37,509 bases of DNA from Lentisphaeria bacterium (GCA_017615635.1 JAFZZR010000011.1:1-37509); one strand, 5' to 3'; counted from the stretch's first letter, positions 1,201 to 11,507 are shown. Made by a program: numbers and translations. The notes: generated by a model from the letters alone, not told the origin.

Positions 1201-1563
1201 GACACACACTCCTTTCCGCTCTGCGCGGTTCATGGTTGATGAGAATATGTTTTCCTATAACTTTTCCGGCGAGGAAGTAAACTGCTCCGAGTTTTTTTTT
1301 GTTGAAATGAGGTGTTTACTTTTATTGTCTCCCGGTTACTGTAGCAAACACCGAATTCAAATATTGCCGAAGAATATATATGGACTATATGAAAACAGAA
1401 GAAGCATATCGGAGCAGATGGTGGAGCCAAAAACTTCAGGGTCTGCCTCTTGATGAAAACATTCCTTCCGGACATTGAAATTTCTCTGGCTGGAATATGG
1501 CAGTCTCGGTTTTCCGCAGGCAAAAATCATACAAACCGTAAACAAATACAGGAGGAACACGGA
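1201..1563. other. Divergent intergenic region
   Basis: This A+T-rich stretch separates the leftward operon (start 1200) from the rightward sigma-like gene (start 1564). It holds a possible leftward promoter (1254-1281) and a possible rightward one, TTGCCG at 1364-1369, 16 bases, TATATG at 1386-1391. A 29-codon frame at 1389-1478 lacks a ribosome-binding site and is not called. No RNA gene or strong inverted repeat was seen. Confidence 0.5.
1254..1281 (-). promoter_or_regulatory. Possible promoter for the leftward three-gene operon
   Basis: On the minus strand TTTACT (1281-1276), a 16-base spacer and TATAGG (1259-1254) lie about 55 bases before the start at 1200. The match is only moderate. 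Confidence 0.35.
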
Positions 1564-1935
1564 ATGTTGAACGAGGAACAGAAAAAATTGTATCGCAGCG
1601 CGGCCCATCTGCTTTCCGGAGAATATGTCCAGTATTATGTAAAGAAATATCCGAAAAGGAATGTAAGCCGTGTCGCCCACAGCGGTCTGGCGACCGCATG
1701 CAGAAAATTCGATCCTGCGAAGGGGTATTCTTTTCTCAGATACGCGGAGTTCTTTATCCATTATTATTTAAAGCGGTATGAGTTTACCGTCATTCCGCCG
1801 GAAGAGAAAGATCCGTATACGCGATTCCATCACGAACTGCTCCGCACGAGGAAACCGAAACACCCTTCGATAAGAGAACTGATTCAAAAAGCAACAGAAT
1901 CCTCCGGGGAGACGCCCGAGTCGCCGGAAAAATAA
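1564..1935 (+). CDS. Stand-alone sigma-70 region-2-like protein
   Basis: ATG 1564 follows AGGAGG by 8 bases. The 123-residue product carries at about residues 33-72 the signature of sigma-70 regions 2.2-2.3: SGLATACRKFDPAKGYSFLR followed by YAEFFIHYYLKR, matching family GLxxAvxkFDpxkGxxFxTYAxxxIxxxixR. The preceding residues are compatible with region 2.1. It is far shorter than a sigma factor: there is no region 3 or 4, and the last 50 residues are polar and low in recognisable structure. The core-binding helix could in principle still contact the RNA polymerase clamp, so an alternative, decoy or phage-type factor is possible; a decayed sigma gene is the other reading. It stands alone between the divergent region and the repeat protein. 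Confidence 0.6.
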   Translation: MLNEEQKKLYRSAAHLLSGEYVQYYVKKYPKRNVSRVAHSGLATACRKFDPAKGYSFLRYAEFFIHYYLKRYEFTVIPPEEKDPYTRFHHELLRTRKPKHPSIRELIQKATESSGETPESPEK

Positions 1936-2004: not shown

Positions 2005-2224
2005 AACAACATTACATCTCGGCCCCCGGACTGCATTTCCGCCCCGGAGAGTATGTGTTCTTTGAAAATTAAAGAGTTTTACAGATCATCTCACCCGTTT
2101 TGTCATTCTCACAAGATTTCAGAAAAAAACAAGCAGGAGGATATCTTATCATAAACGAATGATCTTTTTGAGTTGGCGGAGCAATACAGGAACAACAGAC
2201 TTTTACCAGGAAAGGAAAGAGAAA

Positions 2225-3625
2225 ATGGAGAAACATCCTATTTATTATTCTGAAAGCGGGAATTGGTGTGTGCTGCTGCAATTTCACCCCGAATTCGCAG
2301 ACAACTGCTACTTTCGGTTTGATGGTGACGAGTGGAGTGCGCTTCTGAGAGGCCAGCCGCAGTTCGCGGACAAGTGTGCCTGGTACAAGCTGCGCGGATA
2401 CGACTGGTCTCATCTTTTGCAGAAACAGCCTCAATTCGCAGACAAGTGTAACTGGAATACGCTGAACGGAAGCAACTGGTCGAAACTTTTACAGGAACAG
2501 CCCCAGTTCGCTGATAAGTGTGACTGGAACAAGCTGGACGGATACAACTGGTCCAACCTTTTGCAGAAGCATCCGCAGTTTGCCGACAAGTGTGAGTGGA
2601 ACAAGCTGAACGGAAGCAACTGGTCTGAACTTTTGAAGGAACAGCCTCAGTTCGCCGACAAATGCAATTGGGAAATGATCACCGAAAATGATCTTGCCAG
2701 TCTTCTGTACAAACAGCCGCAATTCGTGGACAAATGTGACTGGAATAAACTGCCCCTCTGGATCTCGGCGGAGCTTGCGGACAGGAATCCTCAATTCGCC
2801 GCCCAGTGCAATTGGGACCGTTTTGATGTCAGCAGCTGGTACTGGCTCCTGTTAAGCGACCCTCAGTTTGCCGACAAGTGCCCGTGGGAAAAGATAAGTA
2901 ATGAAATGCTCGTCTCTCTCCTGCAGGAACGGCCCCAGTTCGCCGACAAATGCGACTGGGAAAAAGTTTCGACAGACGAATGGAAGGAGCTTTTAAGGTG
3001 TCAGCCCCGGTTTGCCGATAAATGTCCGTGGGAAAAAATGAAGGACCTTGACGGCAAAGCGTGGGTAGAGCTTTTGACCAGTCAGCCGCAGTTTGCCGAC
3101 AAGTGCCCGTGGGAAAAACTGGAAGACCTTGACGGCAAAGCGTGGGTAGATTTTTTGACAAAACAGCCGCAGTTTGCCGATAAATGCCCGTGGCAAATGA
3201 TGAAGCGGCTCGGAGGCAGAACGTGGTCGGATCTTTTGTCCGTTCAACCGCAGTTCGCGGATAGATGTCCGTGGGCCAGAGTCAGGAAACTCAACGGCAG
3301 CCGGTGGGCCTGGCTTCTGGGGTGTCAGCCTCAGTTCGCCGACAAATGTCCGTGGGAGAAACTGGATGGCTGGGCATGGAGTTATCTTCTTGCAAAACAG
3401 CCCCAATTTGCCGACAGGTGTCCGTGGGAGAAACTGGAAGGCTTCTCATGGTGTCGCCTTCTGAAAAAACAGCCTCAGTTCGCCGACAAATGCCAGTGGG
3501 ATAAACTGGACGGCTGTTCCTGGGGCTGGCTTCTGAAGGCTCAGCCGCAATTCGCCGACAGATGTAACTGGCGGGAAATGAACAGCTGGTTTTGGGTAAA
3601 GTCAACCGACAACTGGTGGCAATAA
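2225..3625 (+). CDS. Tandem Cys/Trp repeat protein (18 units of about 24 residues)
   Basis: The 466-residue product is almost entirely 18 tandem units. Each runs approximately QFADKCxWxKLxGxxWxxLL followed by a short K/QxQP linker; 24 residues is usual and 27 occurs in units 11 to 14. The Cys and the first aromatic are near invariant. The pattern of two short amphipathic segments per unit suggests an alpha solenoid, hence a binding scaffold, but this is inference. There is no signal peptide or membrane segment, so it should be cytoplasmic. Start 2225 is preferred because AGGAAAGAG lies just upstream and MEKHPIYY precedes the first unit directly; an in-frame ATG at 2159 sits 18 bases from its nearest AGGAGG. 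I cannot assign a function. Confidence 0.8.
   Translation: MEKHPIYYSESGNWCVLLQFHPEFADNCYFRFDGDEWSALLRGQPQFADKCAWYKLRGYDWSHLLQKQPQFADKCNWNTLNGSNWSKLLQEQPQFADKCDWNKLDGYNWSNLLQKHPQFADKCEWNKLNGSNWSELLKEQPQFADKCNWEMITENDLASLLYKQPQFVDKCDWNKLPLWISAELADRNPQFAAQCNWDRFDVSSWYWLLLSDPQFADKCPWEKISNEMLVSLLQERPQFADKCDWEKVSTDEWKELLRCQPRFADKCPWEKMKDLDGKAWVELLTSQPQFADKCPWEKLEDLDGKAWVDFLTKQPQFADKCPWQMMKRLGGRTWSDLLSVQPQFADRCPWARVRKLNGSRWAWLLGCQPQFADKCPWEKLDGWAWSYLLAKQPQFADRCPWEKLEGFSWCRLLKKQPQFADKCQWDKLDGCSWGWLLKAQPQFADRCNWREMNSWFWVKSTDNWWQ
2291..3622 (+). repeat. In-frame tandem repeat array, 72-81 base period
   Basis: Eighteen coding repeats, period 72 bases for most and 81 bases for units 11-14. Units 11 and 12 share a 26-base identical block starting at 3044 and again at 3125, which indicates recent duplication by slippage or unequal crossing over. 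Confidence 0.85.
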
Positions 3626-3738: not shown

Positions 3739-4335
3739 ATGCAGAAAGAACTCAAATTCACCTTATCCGGAAAGAATTTTTCCGGATCGCCCGTAAAGCT
3801 GGAACGGGAGAAGATTTACGGTCGCAGCGAAACCATCGCGACTGATCGAAACGGAAACGAATGCGTATGTGCAAGCCTTGATCCGGAAGGAACGCTGATC
3901 ATTCCGGCGGGCGCAGTGAAACCGGGATTGCTGAGCGATTCCGGAGAATGGATCGAAAAGAACACTCTCTGCGTTGTCGATGAGAACGGGCAGACCCCAC
4001 AGCGGGTCATGTCTTCGTTCGAAGGCGAAATTGCTTTGTCAGAGGTCGCAACTCTGGAGGAATTCGTCGATCATATCTGGAAAGCTGTTTATATGCTCGA
4101 CATCCCTGAACTTGCCTCACTGATCGGAGATACGATCCGCCGTTTCCCTTTCAGTTACCGCGGAGGTTTTTCGGAGGATGACGGCTTCCTGCTTGCCGCC
4201 AACGGTAAATGCTGGCTGTTCGCCGGGGAAGGCGTTGATTTCCCCTTTATCGGGATTTCCGAAGAGGGCGTTCTGGACGATCCGGAAGCGGCGGAATCCG
4301 AGGAATCCGAGGATATTGACTTTGATATGATGTAA
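3739..4335 (+). CDS. Unknown protein, first gene of the ligase-helicase cassette
   Basis: ATG 3739 follows AAGGAG by 10 bases. The 198-residue product has a probable beta-rich N-terminal half (about residues 20-90) with the segment KIYGRSETIATDRNGNEC and a Gly/Pro-rich LIIPAGAVKPG. A more helical centre follows (EEFVDHIWKAVYMLDIPELA), and the tail after about residue 175 is strongly acidic, rich in Glu, Asp and Ser. The acidic tail could mimic nucleic acid or be a flexible partner-binding arm; that is inference. No catalytic motif is visible. It lies 14 bases before the next unknown gene and shares its direction with the ligase, DUF932-like and helicase genes, so a shared function is likely. 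Confidence 0.75.
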   Translation: MQKELKFTLSGKNFSGSPVKLEREKIYGRSETIATDRNGNECVCASLDPEGTLIIPAGAVKPGLLSDSGEWIEKNTLCVVDENGQTPQRVMSSFEGEIALSEVATLEEFVDHIWKAVYMLDIPELASLIGDTIRRFPFSYRGGFSEDDGFLLAANGKCWLFAGEGVDFPFIGISEEGVLDDPEAAESEESEDIDFDMM

Positions 4336-4349
4336 CAGGAGGACTGAAA

Positions 4350-5048
4350 ATGCGTACCATCCATCTATCCAATGAAAAGAAACGCGACGCCCAGGTCGGT
4401 TTTGAACTGAACCGCAGGAAGTCGAAATTCCGCTCCGTCACTGCGGACGGAAACGTTCCGGTCAATTGCCGTATCCTGAAATCGACCCGGGCAACGGAAC
4501 CTGATGCACTGCTGAAACAGTTCGACAATCTTTCCGATGCGATCATCCAAAACGATCCGGAAATCGACATGGAACAGGTTGGCCGAAAACTGGCGGATCT
4601 GCAGAAGGTGTACCTTGACGGAGAGGGAAAACCGGCGAAATCCGTAACGCTGACAGAACATCTTTATGCTGTCGATGGGACGGAGAGAGGAAGTCGCCCG
4701 GCAACCGTCACGCAGGCGAACATCGCGGTGGAAACAGTGCCGGTCCGCTGGACAGGCAAGATATTTCCGCGGGCGCAGGCAATACGCCGATTTGTGTTCG
4801 GAAGGAGTTACCAGCTGCGCCATGTCAACGGCCTGACCTTTGATTTTCTCTACGAAATGGCGAAGAAACTTGCCGAGTCCGACTCCATGCTTCTGCTTGG
4901 AGGCGGGACAAAAGGAAACGAACCGCTGATCCTTTCCAACAACGGGACACCTTATCGCGCCTTTTTGGAAGGGCGCGTGAGGGACAATTCATATGTTTTG
5001 CTTATGCACCTCACAAATCTTGAGTTGAAGGAGATTGCTCATGAATGA
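4350..5048 (+). CDS. Unknown protein, second gene of the ligase-helicase cassette
   Basis: ATG 4350 has AGGAGG 7 bases upstream. The 232-residue protein has a basic N-terminus (NEKKRDAQVGFELNRRKSKF), a middle helical section with acidic residues (about 50-90), and a C-terminal half beginning near 125 with TGKIFPRAQAIRRFVFGRSY, then LLLGGGTKGNEPLILSNNG. I recognise no domain and no enzyme motif. Its last eight bases overlap the start of the ATP-dependent ligase gene (5041), which implies translational coupling and probably a stoichiometric relation to the ligase. A DNA-binding accessory factor would fit the basic N-terminus but is not shown by the sequence. Confidence 0.75.
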   Translation: MRTIHLSNEKKRDAQVGFELNRRKSKFRSVTADGNVPVNCRILKSTRATEPDALLKQFDNLSDAIIQNDPEIDMEQVGRKLADLQKVYLDGEGKPAKSVTLTEHLYAVDGTERGSRPATVTQANIAVETVPVRWTGKIFPRAQAIRRFVFGRSYQLRHVNGLTFDFLYEMAKKLAESDSMLLLGGGTKGNEPLILSNNGTPYRAFLEGRVRDNSYVLLMHLTNLELKEIAHE

Positions 5049-6402
5049 TTCCAAAGAGTATCAGCAGATTGCCGTGAATTACAAACGCCGGATTTCTGGC
5101 GGCTTCATGCTGGTTGAACCGGCCAGGATTCACAATCGGCTATCCGGAGAGGATTTCTGCGTCACCCGGAAAATTGACGGACTCATGCAGTGCGTATTCT
5201 GGAAGGACGGCACGGCATTCATGGTGGGAAGCGGCGGTGCAGTTATGACCGGGCTTCCATGTCTGGACGAGTTCGCGGAATGTGCGAAGAAAGCCGGGCT
5301 GGATTCCGCCGTCATCGCAGCGGAACTCTATTACCCGCTTGACGGCGGGCGTTCCCGCTGTCACGATGTCCTGCGCGTACTGCCGACAGAGGAAAAGGTG
5401 AAACTCAAGCTCGCCCCGTTCGATCTTCTGGAGCGCAACGGCGAACCATACAAGGCCGTTCATTACAAGGAAACACACAAAGAGCTGCGCCGTCTTTTCT
5501 CCGGTCAGATGATACATCCGGTAGAAATGCGTTCCGCCCGAAGCAGGGAAGAAGTGGAGGCTATCTTCGACGAATGGGTGGTCGAACAAGGCGCGGAAGG
5601 ATTGGTCGTTCACTCCGAGTCGCCGATCATCTGGAAAGTGAAACCTCGTCATACAATCGATGCGGTGGTCGTCGGCTATACGGCAACGGACCAGGGAATA
5701 CGTGATCTTCTGTTTGCCGTTCGCCGGGAAGACGGCAGATTCCAGGCATTTGCTACAGGGTCCAACGGATTGACTGCGGAACAGAGAATTCCTCTCATGG
5801 AAACATTGAAGGAGGATGCGGCAGAGTCGCAATACATCCGCACCGATTCCGAAAACAATGCGTTTCAGATGGTGTGTCCCAAGCTGGTTTTTGAAATCAG
5901 CGTCAACGAGCTCATCTCGGAAAGCAATGCCGGAAAGATCAAGCTGAATCCGCTTCTTGAATTCGATCAGGGAAAAGGATGGCTTTCCTGCGGCAGCACG
6001 CCGGGCGTTTCAGCACTGGCTCCGGCAGTCGTCCGGCTTCGCGAAGATAAAACACCGGTATATGAAGACATCCGTGTATCCCAGCTTTCGGATATCTGCC
6101 CGTTTGCCGAAAAAAAGGTAGGCGACGGTCCCCTTCCGGCAAGTACACTTCTGGACAGAAAAGTGTTCCGCAAGATTTCAGGTGAAAAAGTGATGATCCA
6201 GAAATTCCTGATCTGGAAAACCAATAAGGAGCAGAGCGGAAAATTCCCCGCGTATGTTTTCTACTATACGGATTACAGTTCCGGTCGCAAGGAATTTCTC
6301 AAACGGGATCTGCGTATTTCGGAGAGCGAGCAGCAGATCCGTACGATCATGGAAGATTTTATCAGCAGCAACATCAAGAAAGGATGGCAGGAGGCGATTT
6401 GA
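5041..6402 (+). CDS. ATP-dependent DNA ligase-like nucleotidyltransferase
   Basis: The 453-residue protein shows the covalent nucleotidyltransferase order: motif I KIDG with the AMP-accepting Lys at about 44, AELYYP as motif III/IIIa neighbourhood, FDLLE, motif IV EGLVVH at about 186-191 and motif V WKVKPRHTIDAVVVGY at about 198-213. An OB-like section follows (FATGSNGLTAEQR, then VCPKLVFEISVNEL), typical of ATP-dependent DNA ligases rather than RNA ligases. About 130 C-terminal residues beyond this are unassigned. It should seal nicked duplex DNA using ATP, in the cytoplasm, alongside the housekeeping NAD-dependent ligase not seen here. ATG 5041 is chosen because AAGGAG lies 7 bases upstream. 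It overlaps the preceding gene by 8 bases, and its TGA overlaps the next ATG. Confidence 0.8.
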   Translation: MNDSKEYQQIAVNYKRRISGGFMLVEPARIHNRLSGEDFCVTRKIDGLMQCVFWKDGTAFMVGSGGAVMTGLPCLDEFAECAKKAGLDSAVIAAELYYPLDGGRSRCHDVLRVLPTEEKVKLKLAPFDLLERNGEPYKAVHYKETHKELRRLFSGQMIHPVEMRSARSREEVEAIFDEWVVEQGAEGLVVHSESPIIWKVKPRHTIDAVVVGYTATDQGIRDLLFAVRREDGRFQAFATGSNGLTAEQRIPLMETLKEDAAESQYIRTDSENNAFQMVCPKLVFEISVNELISESNAGKIKLNPLLEFDQGKGWLSCGSTPGVSALAPAVVRLREDKTPVYEDIRVSQLSDICPFAEKKVGDGPLPASTLLDRKVFRKISGEKVMIQKFLIWKTNKEQSGKFPAYVFYYTDYSSGRKEFLKRDLRISESEQQIRTIMEDFISSNIKKGWQEAI

Positions 6403-7472
6403 TGGAAGATATCTTGAAAAACAAAAAAGAGGTGGTCGATTTTGGAAGTTTTATTCGCCGATTCGAGTTTGAAACTGTCGAACTGCGCGAAATGGAACCC
6501 ATTACTGTTGACGGAAGCATCGGCGGCGTCCGCATCGGAAATAATGCTTTTTTCGTGACAAAACGTTTCATGAAGACGATGATGTCTTTATTCGGCTTTG
6601 CCGAGTCATTATTTCAATATTTCTCGCCGGAAGAGTTGTTCAGCAGGATCATCGAACGCAAAAAAGAGACGGCTCTGCGGCTTTGCATCGACAGGAAACG
6701 GATGCAGGTCAACGGAGTGAGTGATGCCACCAACGAGATACTTCCGATGACAAATGTCTGCCGTATCGTCAGGGAAGACCCGCGGCTTACGGAGATCCGT
6801 TATGATCCGGAAACCACTCTGATGGAATCCGCACTGGAACTGGATGACGAATGGGAAATCAGCAAAGACAGCAAGTATGGAAATCTTCTCTATTTTTCAT
6901 ATCCGGTCGATCAGTGCCAGACTCCGACAATCGCACTCGGATTGATCCGCATGGTCTGCACAAACGGTTTGATCGCCCGCAAAAAGTGTTTTGAAACGGA
7001 TCTCGTGATAGAGAAAAATCATGGCCGTCATCTTCAGCAGTTGTTGAAATGTTTTAACAATCGAAATGGTTTTGACGCTCTGCGGGAACGGATGCAGATT
7101 GCTCAGAATACCAAAGCAAGCGTGAATGAATTTCTCGGAGTGGTCAATACGATGAAATCATACATCAAGAACCACGTTCCCTTTGTTGAGAGACTGCATG
7201 ACATCGCCGGACATCCGGAAAATCAGTATGGGCAGACCCGGCTGGAAAACATCCGCTCGCGGCATCGCAGTGAACTCCCGACACAGGCAAGCGTCATGGA
7301 TCTGCTCAACGTGCTGACAGAGACCGCAACTCATTTCCTGCCGGACAAACACCTTCAGATCTGTGCCTATGCAACAAATCTGCTGGCGAATGAGTTCGAT
7401 CTTGAGGAACTTGCCAAAAACAAGCGTCCCTCGCAGGACTTTTATCTGAAAGGTCTTCCTCATGGAGATTGA
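6402..7472 (+). CDS. DUF932-like (phage/plasmid-type) protein
   Basis: ATG 6402 is embedded in the ligase stop (TGATG) and has AGGAGG upstream. The 356-residue product resembles the DUF932 family of phage and plasmid proteins: a central region with ALGLIRMVCTNGLIARKK at about 170-190 matches the family's conserved 'CtNGl' segment, followed by a basic helical stretch with multiple Arg and Asn and a long helical C-terminus. DUF932 proteins are usually found on mobile elements near replication or recombination genes; their activity is not settled as far as I know. Its position between a DNA ligase and a helicase makes a DNA transaction role likely. The match is by eye and only the central segment is diagnostic. 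Confidence 0.6.
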   Translation: MEDILKNKKEVVDFGSFIRRFEFETVELREMEPITVDGSIGGVRIGNNAFFVTKRFMKTMMSLFGFAESLFQYFSPEELFSRIIERKKETALRLCIDRKRMQVNGVSDATNEILPMTNVCRIVREDPRLTEIRYDPETTLMESALELDDEWEISKDSKYGNLLYFSYPVDQCQTPTIALGLIRMVCTNGLIARKKCFETDLVIEKNHGRHLQQLLKCFNNRNGFDALRERMQIAQNTKASVNEFLGVVNTMKSYIKNHVPFVERLHDIAGHPENQYGQTRLENIRSRHRSELPTQASVMDLLNVLTETATHFLPDKHLQICAYATNLLANEFDLEELAKNKRPSQDFYLKGLPHGD

Positions 7473-8526
7473 AAATCGTCCCTATCAGCAAAAATGCATC
7501 CGGAAGTGCATGGAATATTTCCGGAATGGAATTGATTCCGTAATGCTGGAATCTCCCGTCGGCTCCGGCAAAACCATCATGGGGCTTTCCATCGTGCAGG
7601 AACTCAACACATTTCAAGGCGGCGCACTTTCCTGCGCCTGGGTCGCGCCCCGGCATACTTTGCTGGAACAGCTGGAGGAGACCCGTCAGAATTTCAATCT
7701 GGAAATCACGCCGATATCCATGTTCGCAAGAAAATCGCAACATTATGATATCGTGGTGCTCGATGAGGCGCATCATGAGGCAACTGGCAGTTTCATCCGA
7801 TTGTTTCATGAAATGTCCCCGAATTTTCTTCTGGGGCTTTCCGCCACGCCGCTTCGAACAGACCGGATGAAACTCGCCTTCAAGGAGACCGTAAACGTCT
7901 GTTCCATACGCAGCTTGATCCTGGACGGCTATCTGAGTCCGTTTCAGCTATACAACATTGAGAAAATGGATACGGACAATGCTGCGTTCCATTATTTGCG
8001 CGATCTGCAGCAATGGGGAAAAACAATTGTTTTCATGCCGACACTGAAAGAGTGTGCCGAATTCCAGAATTTGCTTCGAAAAGCCGGGATAGACTGTCCT
8101 GTCGTACAAGGTGGTCAGAACAATGACGGAATTTTAGAGGGATTCCGCAAGGATCAGTATCAGATCATCGTCAACTGTCATTTACTTACGGAAGGGTTCG
8201 ATCTTCCGGAACTGAAGACGGTTTTCCTGAAAGATGCGACCCGGCTTCCAACCATTCAGATGGCCGGACGGGTCTTGCGAAAATCTCCCCTGAAGACATT
8301 GGCAAACATTGTTCAAAGCAAGGAAAGCAAGTACCCGGTTCAGCGCATTGCCGAACCGCAGACGATCTGGCTGTGGCGCAATCAAGAGTTTCAGGCGGTC
8401 AGCGGGCGAAACGATAAAGTCATGAAGACCGTCATGCACATGCTGGAACTGCGTGACAAACGGCGAAAAATCGAACTGCCTCAATGTCTTTTCGGGTATG
8501 GCGGATCAGAACATGTTTATGCGTGA
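7462..8526 (+). CDS. Small SF2 DEAD/DEAH-type helicase
   Basis: The 354-residue protein has the ordered SF2 motifs: a Q-like RPYQQ near the start, Walker A SPVGSGKT at 31-38, DEAHH at about 101-105, SATPLRTD near 126-133, TEGFDLPE in the second RecA domain and motif VI QMAGRVLRKS at about 266. It is close to the minimal two-RecA-domain length, resembling UvsW/RecG-core or ResIII-like helicases of phages, with no nuclease or long accessory domain. It should move on or remodel nucleic acid using ATP. It starts 11 bases inside the DUF932-like gene, so the two are translationally coupled. An 87-base gap follows before the next gene, the largest gap in the cassette. Confidence 0.85.
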   Translation: MEIENRPYQQKCIRKCMEYFRNGIDSVMLESPVGSGKTIMGLSIVQELNTFQGGALSCAWVAPRHTLLEQLEETRQNFNLEITPISMFARKSQHYDIVVLDEAHHEATGSFIRLFHEMSPNFLLGLSATPLRTDRMKLAFKETVNVCSIRSLILDGYLSPFQLYNIEKMDTDNAAFHYLRDLQQWGKTIVFMPTLKECAEFQNLLRKAGIDCPVVQGGQNNDGILEGFRKDQYQIIVNCHLLTEGFDLPELKTVFLKDATRLPTIQMAGRVLRKSPLKTLANIVQSKESKYPVQRIAEPQTIWLWRNQEFQAVSGRNDKVMKTVMHMLELRDKRRKIELPQCLFGYGGSEHVYA

Positions 8527-8613: not shown

Positions 8614-9615
8614 ATGAGAAACAACAAACTCAGCCCTGCCGTCAAAAACGTCTTCCGCCGTTCGATGGAAGCGAAGAAACTTCTTTTTTTCGAAGATGGT
8701 TCCATGCCGCAGGAAGTAAGGGAACTCTGCTTCCCCGCACCTGAAATCTCCCCCGAAATCATCGATGAATGGAACCGCAGTCATACCTATGAAGATGAAC
8801 TTATTGACAAATTCGTCCTCCGCAATACCTTCACGGGCGATTTTTCAACTGCCCGGATCATTCTGCTGGACAATTGTGTCCCGAAAGAATCACCGGGAAA
8901 TTTCTCCAGGAAAAATTCTGGCGAAACATGGAGATTCTGGTTTTTTCTTGGTGAGGCGATAAAAGAAAAGTACGGGATTTTGAAGGACGTTATCTGTATT
9001 CCGTTGACCGACAAGGCTGATGATACGGTCTCGATGAAATTCAATGCTTACGGCAAAGAGTTTCATTCTTTCTCGGATTTCTGGAAGATTGAACTCCACA
9101 CGTTGCAAAACACCGGACTGCTCGACGCCTTCTATCCGGTGACACCTCCGGTTTGCCCGGCGGAAGAAAATTATAACCTCTTCAAATTTACCGGACGAAG
9201 AGGTCTCGATGAAACCAGAGCAAAGATCGCGGAATTGGAAAAATATTTCGCACAGATAGCCTGGTTCACCTTTGATCTGGAACAATTCACCACGAAGAGA
9301 CATTATTATAACTTCGGCAATGAAAACGTCTTTATCAAGACTCCGTATTATAACTATTTCAAGAACATCAAAGAGGACGTTCTGAAAAAAGTTCGCAGCG
9401 CTATGACTGAAAACAAAATTATCATCTGCCGCAATGAGCTTGCCTTGTGGAATCGGGAAATTGATTTTTCCCAATACGACAACTTTTTCTATCTTTATAA
9501 TCCGGCATGCCCCATCTGCCGCGGCAATGTTGGAAAAGGTTGTGATTTGAGCAAGAGGACTGCTGCAGATCCCTTTGACGAATTGGTAAATGCCTGTGGA
9601 ACGTTTTTGAAATGA
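8614..9615 (+). CDS. Unknown 333-residue protein with C-terminal CPxC
   Basis: ATG 8614 follows GAGGAG by 8 bases; an upstream in-frame start at 8599 lies before that site and is not used. The protein is rich in aromatic residues, with no signal peptide or membrane span. A CPICRGNVGKGC segment near residue 300-312 could bind a metal through its three Cys but lacks an obvious fourth ligand nearby. No family is recognised. It follows the helicase after 87 bases and its stop overlaps the start of the next gene (ATGA), so it may belong to the same transcript or begin a second two-gene unit. Confidence 0.7.
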   Translation: MRNNKLSPAVKNVFRRSMEAKKLLFFEDGSMPQEVRELCFPAPEISPEIIDEWNRSHTYEDELIDKFVLRNTFTGDFSTARIILLDNCVPKESPGNFSRKNSGETWRFWFFLGEAIKEKYGILKDVICIPLTDKADDTVSMKFNAYGKEFHSFSDFWKIELHTLQNTGLLDAFYPVTPPVCPAEENYNLFKFTGRRGLDETRAKIAELEKYFAQIAWFTFDLEQFTTKRHYYNFGNENVFIKTPYYNYFKNIKEDVLKKVRSAMTENKIIICRNELALWNREIDFSQYDNFFYLYNPACPICRGNVGKGCDLSKRTAADPFDELVNACGTFLK

Positions 9616-10613
9616 CAAAGAGTTTAGTGAAACCGATCATACAATATTGCCTGTTTGCTGTTTTTGCGGCGCTTCCGCTGACAACTTTTTCAGAAGAGCG
9701 GAACGCTTCGAAGAATCCGGTGGTTGACGGCTCGTTCGTCGACTATTTTTCAGCCCGGTCTTACAACTTTCAAAACATTGATGAATTCTTTCAAAAGAAA
9801 ATCAAGGAGGCGAAGAAACTTGATTTCGATCTCCATTTCAAATGGATGGAAAACCGGAAGGCGTTTGCCGAATTCCAGCTGCATTCCCTGGTATGCAGGC
9901 CATATATGGAGCCCTCCGATGCGGAAAGGCTGCGCTTGTTTCGGGAGTTTTCCGCATGGAGGAAATACTGTGAAAACGACCGCCCGGCGGATGCTCATTA
10001 TGTTGCTCGGTGGAATTCGCTGAAGGGGATGATGGTCGATACACAGCGGCTCTCTACCCGATATGAGGCTTTTTGCCTGCTGTTGGAATCGCCCGAAGAA
10101 TATAAGAATTATGCAAAGTTGGCGGACAAAGGCGAGATCAGACTGGATGGGAATCCATCACATCCGATCCGAATGCGTTATGGGGAGATCACCACGGAAG
10201 ATAAGGCTGGGAACAATGAAATCAATTATGATTTCCATGCCGAACTCATGCCGAAAACCTGTTTCAAGATCAAGAACGGCTATGTCGGCTGTCTGAGAAC
10301 ATTTGAAAGTCCGTCCCCCAGCATCATGGCACAATATTATCTGGGCGTGTGGGATGATGCGGGAAAAATCCTGGCGCTTCATCCGCTGGATATTCCTGTC
10401 GAAAAACGGAACAAACTTGCGGTGGAATCGAACATATACGGGAGTCTGATTGCCATTCATCCGGCTGACGGCGTTTACGGGGAGAAATTGCAGTTATCCA
10501 TCTCAGGCAATGATGCGGAAATCTCCCTGTTTGTCATCGGCAGTGAAAAACCGGTATGGTCCGGTAAATATCCTCTGGACTCCCGGAATCAAAACACCAT
10601 CCCGCAGAAGTGA
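9612..10613 (+). CDS. Secreted protein of unknown function
   Basis: The start overlaps the upstream stop as ATGA. The 333-residue product begins with a signal peptide: basic MTKSLVK, a hydrophobic core to about residue 24 (IIQYCLFAVFAALPLTTFS) and probable cleavage before EERN. The mature protein is mixed alpha/beta without recognisable catalytic motifs. A repeated-looking beta-rich C-terminal half (about 190-330) might be a carbohydrate-binding or lipoprotein-like fold, but that is a guess. An exported protein coupled to the cytoplasmic cassette is unexpected; it may be only positionally linked. Confidence 0.7.
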   Translation: MTKSLVKPIIQYCLFAVFAALPLTTFSEERNASKNPVVDGSFVDYFSARSYNFQNIDEFFQKKIKEAKKLDFDLHFKWMENRKAFAEFQLHSLVCRPYMEPSDAERLRLFREFSAWRKYCENDRPADAHYVARWNSLKGMMVDTQRLSTRYEAFCLLLESPEEYKNYAKLADKGEIRLDGNPSHPIRMRYGEITTEDKAGNNEINYDFHAELMPKTCFKIKNGYVGCLRTFESPSPSIMAQYYLGVWDDAGKILALHPLDIPVEKRNKLAVESNIYGSLIAIHPADGVYGEKLQLSISGNDAEISLFVIGSEKPVWSGKYPLDSRNQNTIPQK

Positions 10614-10678: not shown

Positions 10679-11507
10679 TCACCTCAGCAGCTCTCTCTCC
10701 TGCTTTTCCCAGACCAGAGGAAAACTGCGCCGCAGGGTCTGCATGGAGAGGTCCGCTTCGCCGAGGATGAGCTTGCGGACGATTGTCGGCGAGAGCAGCG
10801 TCAGTCTCGTCGCCTTCGCCACTACGCCGGAATCGATGCCGATGGCTTCCGCCAGTGCCTTGATGTTGGCGTAAGTCCCGTCGTCGATCAGTGACTGCCA
10901 GTGAAAACCCCTGGCAAGATTCAGCAGCAGGGGAGAATCACATCCCGGCAGATCGGTCGTTTCCTTCGCCGCGATTCGTTTCCGTCCCCCCTGCGTTTTG
11001 AACGTGACCGGAATCGTTGATGTCCAGTTCGATGTGGTCTTCAAAGAGCGTGACGCGGTCCAGGATCAGCTGGGCCAGACGGGTGAATTCGGCGGGCTTC
11101 GCTTCCTGCCAGAATCTTTCTCCGAACATTCCGGAAATCTCATCGTGGGACATTCCGGTTTTGCCGACCAGTCCCGCCAGCACATCCGGCGAATGGAACA
11201 CCTTGTCCATCTGCTCCTGTACCAGATTCTCCACCATCCCGGCCGGAACCTTTTTGACGGGGCAGTCGCTGGGGCCCACCGACTTCTCATGCTTTTCGCA
11301 GATGCAATAGTGGTAGAGGATTCCCTTCTTCTTACCGTAGGAGGGCATCATCGGACAGCCGCAGTGACCGCAGCGGATGATGCCATGGAGCGGTGGCCAC
11401 GTTTCAAAATTTTTGGTAAAATTCATACCACTGATACGGATTCTCCACGAGACCGGGATCTGGTTTTCGATCGACGGACACGAAAGGTGGCTGCGGCGCG
11501 GCAACAA
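10679..11507 (-). pseudogene. Frameshifted remnant of a large serine recombinase (C-terminal part)
   Basis: Reading leftward, about 11396 to 11020 encodes the zinc beta-ribbon region of large serine recombinases: LHGIIRCGHCGCPMMPSY, then YHYCICEKH and CPVKKVPAGMVENLV. The family's C-terminal section continues only in a different frame (about 11020 to 10679: IPVTFKTQGGRKRI, ALAEAIGIDSGVVAKATRLT, SPTIVRKLILGEADL), so a frameshift lies near 11005-11030. The catalytic N-terminal resolvase domain with its Ser is missing, since the frame upstream of 11426 no longer resembles the family. It cannot be an active recombinase. Its location at the boundary between the accessory region and the core-like genes suggests it once moved the neighbouring DNA. 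The 5' limit is uncertain. Confidence 0.8.

Follow-up and report, generated by a model that had tools for sequence, protein, structure and literature searches.

Two predicted Ku-fold proteins and a stand-alone ligase as a putative end-joining module, joined to a DUF932-like/helicase pair in a Lentisphaeria genome

Five genes packed almost end to end in the genome of a Lentisphaeria bacterium raise the question of whether they form one molecular system, and of what kind. The stretch analysed, referred to here as the window, comprises 37,509 nucleotides (GCA_017615635.1, JAFZZR010000011.1:1-37509) and is one entire contig of a 3.7-Mb metagenome-assembled genome. All five rightward open reading frames (ORFs) listed in the original prediction, which was made from the sequence alone, are present at positions 3739-8526 (+). 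They encode two proteins designated P1 and P2, an ATP-dependent DNA ligase (P3), a DUF932-like protein (P4) and a minimal SF2 helicase (P5). The original prediction treated them as a single set; genes 1-3 and genes 4-5, however, each recur without the other, so the one-system view is wrong, and the five genes are two joined modules, the triad P1-P2-ligase and the pair P4-P5, rather than one unit. With a probability of about 0.7, we consider the triad to be a divergent bacterial non-homologous end joining (NHEJ) module made of two Ku-fold subunits, probably heterodimeric, and a stand-alone ligase.

Ku, a ring-shaped protein that grips DNA at broken ends, naturally partners LigD-like ligases. 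Convincing Pfam families were found for none of the 52 aligned P1 proteins and none of the 59 aligned P2 proteins, no member of either alignment matches the Ku family PF02735 at E ≤ 0.1, and sequence searches found no PDB chain for P1, P2 or P4. AlphaFold monomer models were built on these 52 and 59 sequences, and the two proteins, modelled alone, both matched Ku. The P2 model (mean predicted local distance difference test score, pLDDT, 90.7; predicted template modelling score, pTM, 0.70) returned 50 Foldseek matches in the PDB with E ≤ 0.001, all of them Ku from human, Mycobacterium tuberculosis and other sources, the best being the M. tuberculosis Ku-DNA structure 9i91 (E = 4.5e-6, probability 1.00). 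For the P1 model (mean pLDDT 80.5, pTM 0.64, acidic tail disordered), seven matches passed 0.001 and all 50 among the matches listed were Ku, led by the Bacillus subtilis Ku-DNA structure 9vnq (E = 1.1e-4, probability 1.00). The Ku reading is supported because the models of P1 and P2, each built from its own alignment, have Ku alone among their matches (50 listed each), and because Ku partners the LigD-like ligases that are the best family match of the third gene. A viral structure library served as a control for P2: the first match was the Ku of mycobacteriophage Dylan (E = 1.5e-3, probability 1.00, 11% identity), the second had a probability of 0.11, and this drop argues against generic barrel similarity as the source of the Ku matches.

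Both models match the Ku beta-barrel/bridge fold at a template modelling score (TM-score) of about 0.4. By eye, both end in a strand-helix-three-strand order that appears to mirror canonical Ku (PYYLEP, helix, three strands), and the terminal LLMHLTNLELK of P2 resembles the last strand of that canonical stretch. The dimer-forming bridge of M. tuberculosis Ku spans residues 23-91 (PMC12784962), so the low confidence of the P1 model at residues 41-60 is counted in favour of Ku. The assignment of P1 and P2 is one of predicted fold: both lie outside the Ku family in the sequence comparisons and inside it in the fold comparison.

The ligase would suit such a partnership with Ku. Its best NCBIfam match is TIGR02779 (NHEJ_ligase_lig; E = 4e-20, 72 bits, below the cut-off of 228), and Pfam reports DNA_ligase_A_M (E = 2e-8). 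In an alignment of 49 ligases, K46 of the KxDG motif, D48, G49, E188, G189, K201 and K203 are invariant, and the OB domain DNA_ligase_A_C matches all members, with Pfam RNA_ligase weakly touching nine (best E = 2.9e-6). P3 consists of the ligase and OB domains and a C-terminal extension; the polymerase and phosphoesterase domains of LigD were not found in it. The extension, a candidate Ku-docking element, is conserved in the 49-member alignment, and the four members compared with Pfam gave no match. It ends in KKGW and by eye recalls a WGR domain, a likeness that Pfam, giving no match, did not confirm. Since a housekeeping NAD-dependent ligase is located elsewhere in the window's genome, the triad ligase is accessory.

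The linkage of the three genes is conserved over great distances. When about 85,000 species genomes were scanned with the P2 alignment, 287 pattern matches and at least 205 confirmed relatives emerged, and 80 of the relatives were kept; P1 and the ligase adjoin P2 in about 90% of these 80 loci. Recurrence in distant genomes, a question raised by the original prediction, was found for the triad, which extends over at least ten phyla. Carriers belong to Bacteroidota, Bacillota, Actinomycetota, Spirochaetota, Pseudomonadota, Thermodesulfobacteriota, Myxococcota, Chloroflexota, Acidobacteriota, Planctomycetota, Verrucomicrobiota, Campylobacterota and Lentisphaerota. Among 81 analysed loci, P1 is present in 75 and the ligase in 73, several of the absences lying at contig ends. 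P1-P2-ligase is the commonest order, and ligase-P1-P2 occurs in the Flavobacteriales-type loci L076, L088, L090, L091 and L094 and in L036. The great majority of triad loci have no P4-P5. Where measured, P2 is rare (3/295 Bacteroidales, 4/198 genomes of the window's class). Over 65 loci, the pairwise distances of the three triad proteins correlate at r = 0.89-0.92, against a permutation maximum of 0.20, and hence the proteins travel as a unit. A tree built from the joined proteins places the Lentisphaerota group (support 93) beside 14 Bacteroidota in a joint clade with support 100 and shows several phyla interleaved; this topology fits lateral transfer, with the usual caution for metagenome bins.

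If the triad joins ends, P1 and P2 would most likely come together as a single heterodimeric ring at a double-strand DNA end, and the ligase, like a stand-alone LigD or LigC ligase domain, would be recruited to this ring and would seal the ends, once aligned, through the usual lysine-AMP reaction. In the window, where the triad is joined to P4-P5, the pair may remodel or clear the ends. The acidic tail of P1, correctly noticed in the original prediction, comprises 25 residues with a net charge of -12. The P1 C-terminus is constant, an acidic run ending in DFSM or a close variant; a terminus of the DF-x-M/L/F type is present in 52/52 aligned P1 proteins and is listed for 65 loci. This tail probably serves to dock the ligase or some other partner, or else to gate the DNA channel, and together with the ligase extension it offers testable interaction elements. 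An SSB-like identity of P1, suggested by the acidic tail, was dropped after the fold matched Ku.

The original prediction also allowed for a defence operon. As an anti-phage system, P1 and P2 would act as sensors for the ends of foreign DNA, with invader or host DNA then processed or sealed by the helicase and ligase. The patchy, horizontally spread distribution described above (3/295 Bacteroidales, interleaved phyla) is in keeping with this, as are conflict-like neighbours, namely a MoxR-like ATPase with a DUF2201 vWA protein in L014, L024, L030, L036, L062, L074 and L091, and vWA, kinase and PP2C genes with a strawberry-notch helicase in L051, L073 and L081. MoxR-vWA couples hold a central place in predicted conflict systems (PMC7159879), and some triad loci carry a double-AAA ATPase neighbour. 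However, the core contains no nuclease or killing enzyme, most triads have no conflict-like neighbours, and end joining repairs rather than restricts. PADLOC gave no match for P1-P4 and generic helicase-domain matches only for P5, and neighbours of the triad match its families only via generic AAA+, kinase and helicase similarity. We therefore regard a defence function as unlikely, and the earlier proposal of it as unproven. In the three Bacteroidota loci L051, L073 and L081, the triad is followed by the strawberry-notch-type helicase, a kinase-like protein, a vWA protein and a PP2C phosphatase; an apparent second ligase there was a clustering artefact, the L073 protein being a vWA domain.

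Several results weigh against end joining by a two-gene Ku. The TM-scores of P1 and P2 to Ku are only about 0.4, with root mean square deviations of 7-13 Å, although the bridge arms may be ordered only in the dimer. Alignment of P1 and P2 with canonical Ku by hhalign gave a probability below 1% for both, and profile comparison shows no sequence-level link between P1 and P2 or to canonical Ku; with shuffled decoys as the control, three of the four hhalign settings did no better than chance, and the match in the remaining one covered 11 columns and was meaningless. P1 remains strongly acidic when its tail is disregarded (residues 1-173, net charge -11), which is odd for a DNA-gripping protein and speaks against P1 making most of the DNA contacts; P2 is basic. 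Both proteins are too short to accommodate either the C-terminal sling or the lysine-rich tail known from bacterial Ku, and the ligase is accompanied by neither a polymerase nor a nuclease domain. LigC-type stand-alone ligases likewise have no polymerase and phosphoesterase domains.

The low TM-scores and the missing profile signal would also suit unrelated nucleic-acid-binding barrel proteins, with whose help the ligase would seal nicks or repair RNA, and the nine ligases touched by Pfam RNA_ligase point the same way. This is improbable, given that Ku accounts for every Foldseek match listed for the two proteins, which were modelled separately, that the gap in the viral library is clean and that DNA_ligase_A_C is found in 49/49 ligases against the weak RNA_ligase signal in nine. 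A phage-derived replication and repair module is very improbable: the ligase and the helicase match phrog_114 (E = 3.3e-16) and phrog_16 (E = 1.8e-44), and DUF932-like proteins are known from phages, but viral-contig scans with P1-P4 found no relatives, tblastn of P2 against phage and plasmid records found nothing, and the loci sit on long chromosomal contigs among ordinary genes. Of the mobile, phage-derived end-processing module originally envisaged, the horizontally spread end processing is supported by the predicted Ku, the ligase and the interleaved phyla, whereas a phage origin is not supported by the viral-contig scans with P1-P4 or by the P2 searches.

In recent structural work, bacterial NHEJ consists of a Ku homodimer with LigD (PMC12784962, PMC12784961, PMC13201618). 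Like this system, represented in Mycobacterium and B. subtilis, the triad combines a predicted Ku-fold end-binding protein with an ATP-dependent ligase nearest to the LigD domain and is sporadically and horizontally distributed. It differs in having a pair of non-identical Ku-fold genes where the known system has one, neither member of the pair being detected by PF02735, in the absence of a C-terminal basic arm or sling from P1 and P2, in a ligase with its own C-terminal extension and without polymerase or phosphoesterase domains, and in the acidic DFSM-type tail of P1. The triad resembles eukaryotic Ku70/Ku80 with DNA ligase IV in that the two predicted Ku subunits are distinct and the ligase is separate; P1 and P2, however, have no vWA, SAP or Ku80 C-terminal domains and are unrelated to Ku70/Ku80 at profile level, and the triad is a bacterial operon. 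The multiple-Ku NHEJ of Streptomyces ambofaciens (PMC5124664) likewise places several Ku genes and additional ATP-dependent ligases in one bacterium, but those Ku proteins are recognised ones, and a fixed P1-P2-ligase operon with cryptic sequences is not known to be described there. The Ku of phage Dylan, the best viral fold match of P2, is a single gene and only distantly similar, as the values given above indicate. No description of a two-gene cryptic Ku or of the three-gene system was found in the open-access papers searched, and no PADLOC family matches the triad. The original prediction, too, recognised no named system.

On balance, we lean slightly towards the broader view that P1 and P2 represent a second, sequence-cryptic bacterial Ku lineage, obligately heterodimeric, equipped with its own ligase, spread horizontally over at least ten phyla, replacing an absent canonical Ku and constituting a two-subunit Ku outside eukaryotes. 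Canonical Ku (PF02735) is absent from 49/50 triad genomes, including the window's genome, where no match was found anywhere; this is only mildly informative, since just 18/195 genomes of the phylum sample have Ku. One genome of the same order encodes a short, divergent but recognisable Ku (L117, G039:C341; 236 aa, PF02735 E = 2.7e-10), adjoining metallophosphatase-like and vWA-like proteins. A 2025 survey of Ku evolution used BLASTP with M. tuberculosis Ku and trimming to PF02735 (PMC11936186) and would therefore miss P1 and P2. If the broader view is true, surveys relying on PF02735 or on BLAST with M. tuberculosis Ku miss the lineage, and 'Ku-negative' bacteria of gut, termite and sediment may join ends. 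A two-gene bacterial Ku would also bear on the possible origin of Ku70/80, and a compact three-protein end-joining kit could be tested for genome engineering in Bacteroidota.

In the window, the triad runs directly into the pair (Table 1). With the ligase starting at ATG 5041 and P4 at ATG 6402, the junctions are a 14-base gap followed by overlaps of 8, 1 and 11 bases, exactly as first counted. Shine-Dalgarno-like stretches (GAAGGAG, GGCAGGAGG) precede these two start codons, and that of P4 is matched by the start of its relative in L012. All five genes recur in unchanged order in two further Lentisphaerota genomes, one of a different genus in the same family (L014) and one of a different family in the same order (L018), with identities to the window genes of 47-54% (about 33% for the DUF932-like gene). 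Because the order recurs at about 50% identity, the five-gene set is more than chance; elsewhere the modules are separate, and triad and pair are joined in only three genomes found. In L014 (genome G009), the P2 gene has an in-frame TAG near codon 211; the final strands may be lost, or the gene may be decaying in that assembly.

Profile searches confirmed the ligase and SF2 helicase families above the Pfam cut-offs and left P1 and P2 without a family; for P4, the ORF stands but the Pfam DUF932 match is sub-threshold (E = 0.034, 14.3 bits vs. a cut-off of 23). P5 matches ResIII (E = 3.3e-19) and Helicase_C (E = 5.8e-11) in addition to phrog_16, and its helicase motifs are intact by inspection. 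P4 adjoins P5 in 8/8 Lentisphaerota loci, the window included. Five of them (L012, L013, L015, L016 and L017) carry the pair without P1-P3, L015 lying in the window's own genome on contig C106. Directly upstream of the pair in four of these five triad-free loci, in the place that the ligase has in the window, is a gene for an SprT-like metallopeptidase, and for this reason SprT and the triad look like alternative partners of P4-P5. Such a swap suggests a shared service of the pair, for example the clearing or remodelling of blocked DNA ends. DUF932-like proteins and the triad also occur together in the Bacteroidota loci L020 and L021, after a RadB/KaiC-like ATPase.

Table 1. Coordinates of the cassette genes, their parts and related features in the window and in other loci
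Feature	Locus	Position	Strand	Remarks
P1	window	3739-4335	+	198 aa, pI 4.2, very acidic; predicted Ku-fold subunit A
P1 acidic C-terminal tail	window	4258-4332	+	ends DIDFDMM; conserved short motif DF(S/G/D/A)M
P2	window	4350-5048	+	232 aa, pI 9.3, basic; predicted Ku-fold subunit B
P3 ATP-dependent DNA ligase	window	5041-6402	+	453-455 aa; alternative start TTG 5035; nearest LigD/NHEJ ligase domain
P3 C-terminal extension	window	6070-6402	+	residues 346-455, ~110 aa; no family; conserved QKFLIW...YTDYSS.RKE...KKGW
P4 DUF932-like protein	window	6402-7472	+	356-362 aa; alternative start ATG 6384; DUF932 sub-threshold
P5 minimal SF2 helicase	window	7462-8526	+	354 aa; motifs GSGKT, DEAH, SATP, QMAGRVLR
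SprT-like	L013	10497-11159	-	Pfam SprT-like 8.5e-11
SprT-like	L015	7924-8700	+	sequence motif
SprT-like	L016	4623-5123	-	sequence motif
SprT-like	L017	5118-5543	-	sequence motif
P2 with in-frame TAG	L014	7448-8134	+	
Triad with strawberry-notch-type helicase	L073	12078-18610	+	
Divergent canonical Ku	L117	1144-1851	-	
Protein with sigma-70 region-2-like stretch	window	1450-1935	+	
Repeat protein	window	2159-3625	+	
Repeat protein relative	L012	6306-7433	-	
Repeat protein relative	L014	2620-3768	-	
Repeat protein relative	L018	2589-3971	+	
Downstream protein	window	9612-10613	+	
Downstream protein relative	L013	6425-7279	-	
Serine recombinase fragment	window	10938-11507	-	

The surroundings of the cassette contain several further features. 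Upstream lies a protein with a weak sigma-70 region-2-like stretch (phrog_351, E = 2.3e-4; TIGR02980, E = 3.6e-4), and just upstream a protein made of many 'QPQFADKCDW' repeats, which belongs to no Pfam family and has relatives near P4-P5 or triad loci in L012, L014 and L018. To the right of the cassette, an apparently degenerate remnant of a serine recombinase (Zn_ribbon_recom, E = 7.3e-11) hints at past mobility. Another protein encoded downstream of the cassette has a weak relative (27% identity) in L013, likewise downstream of P4-P5.

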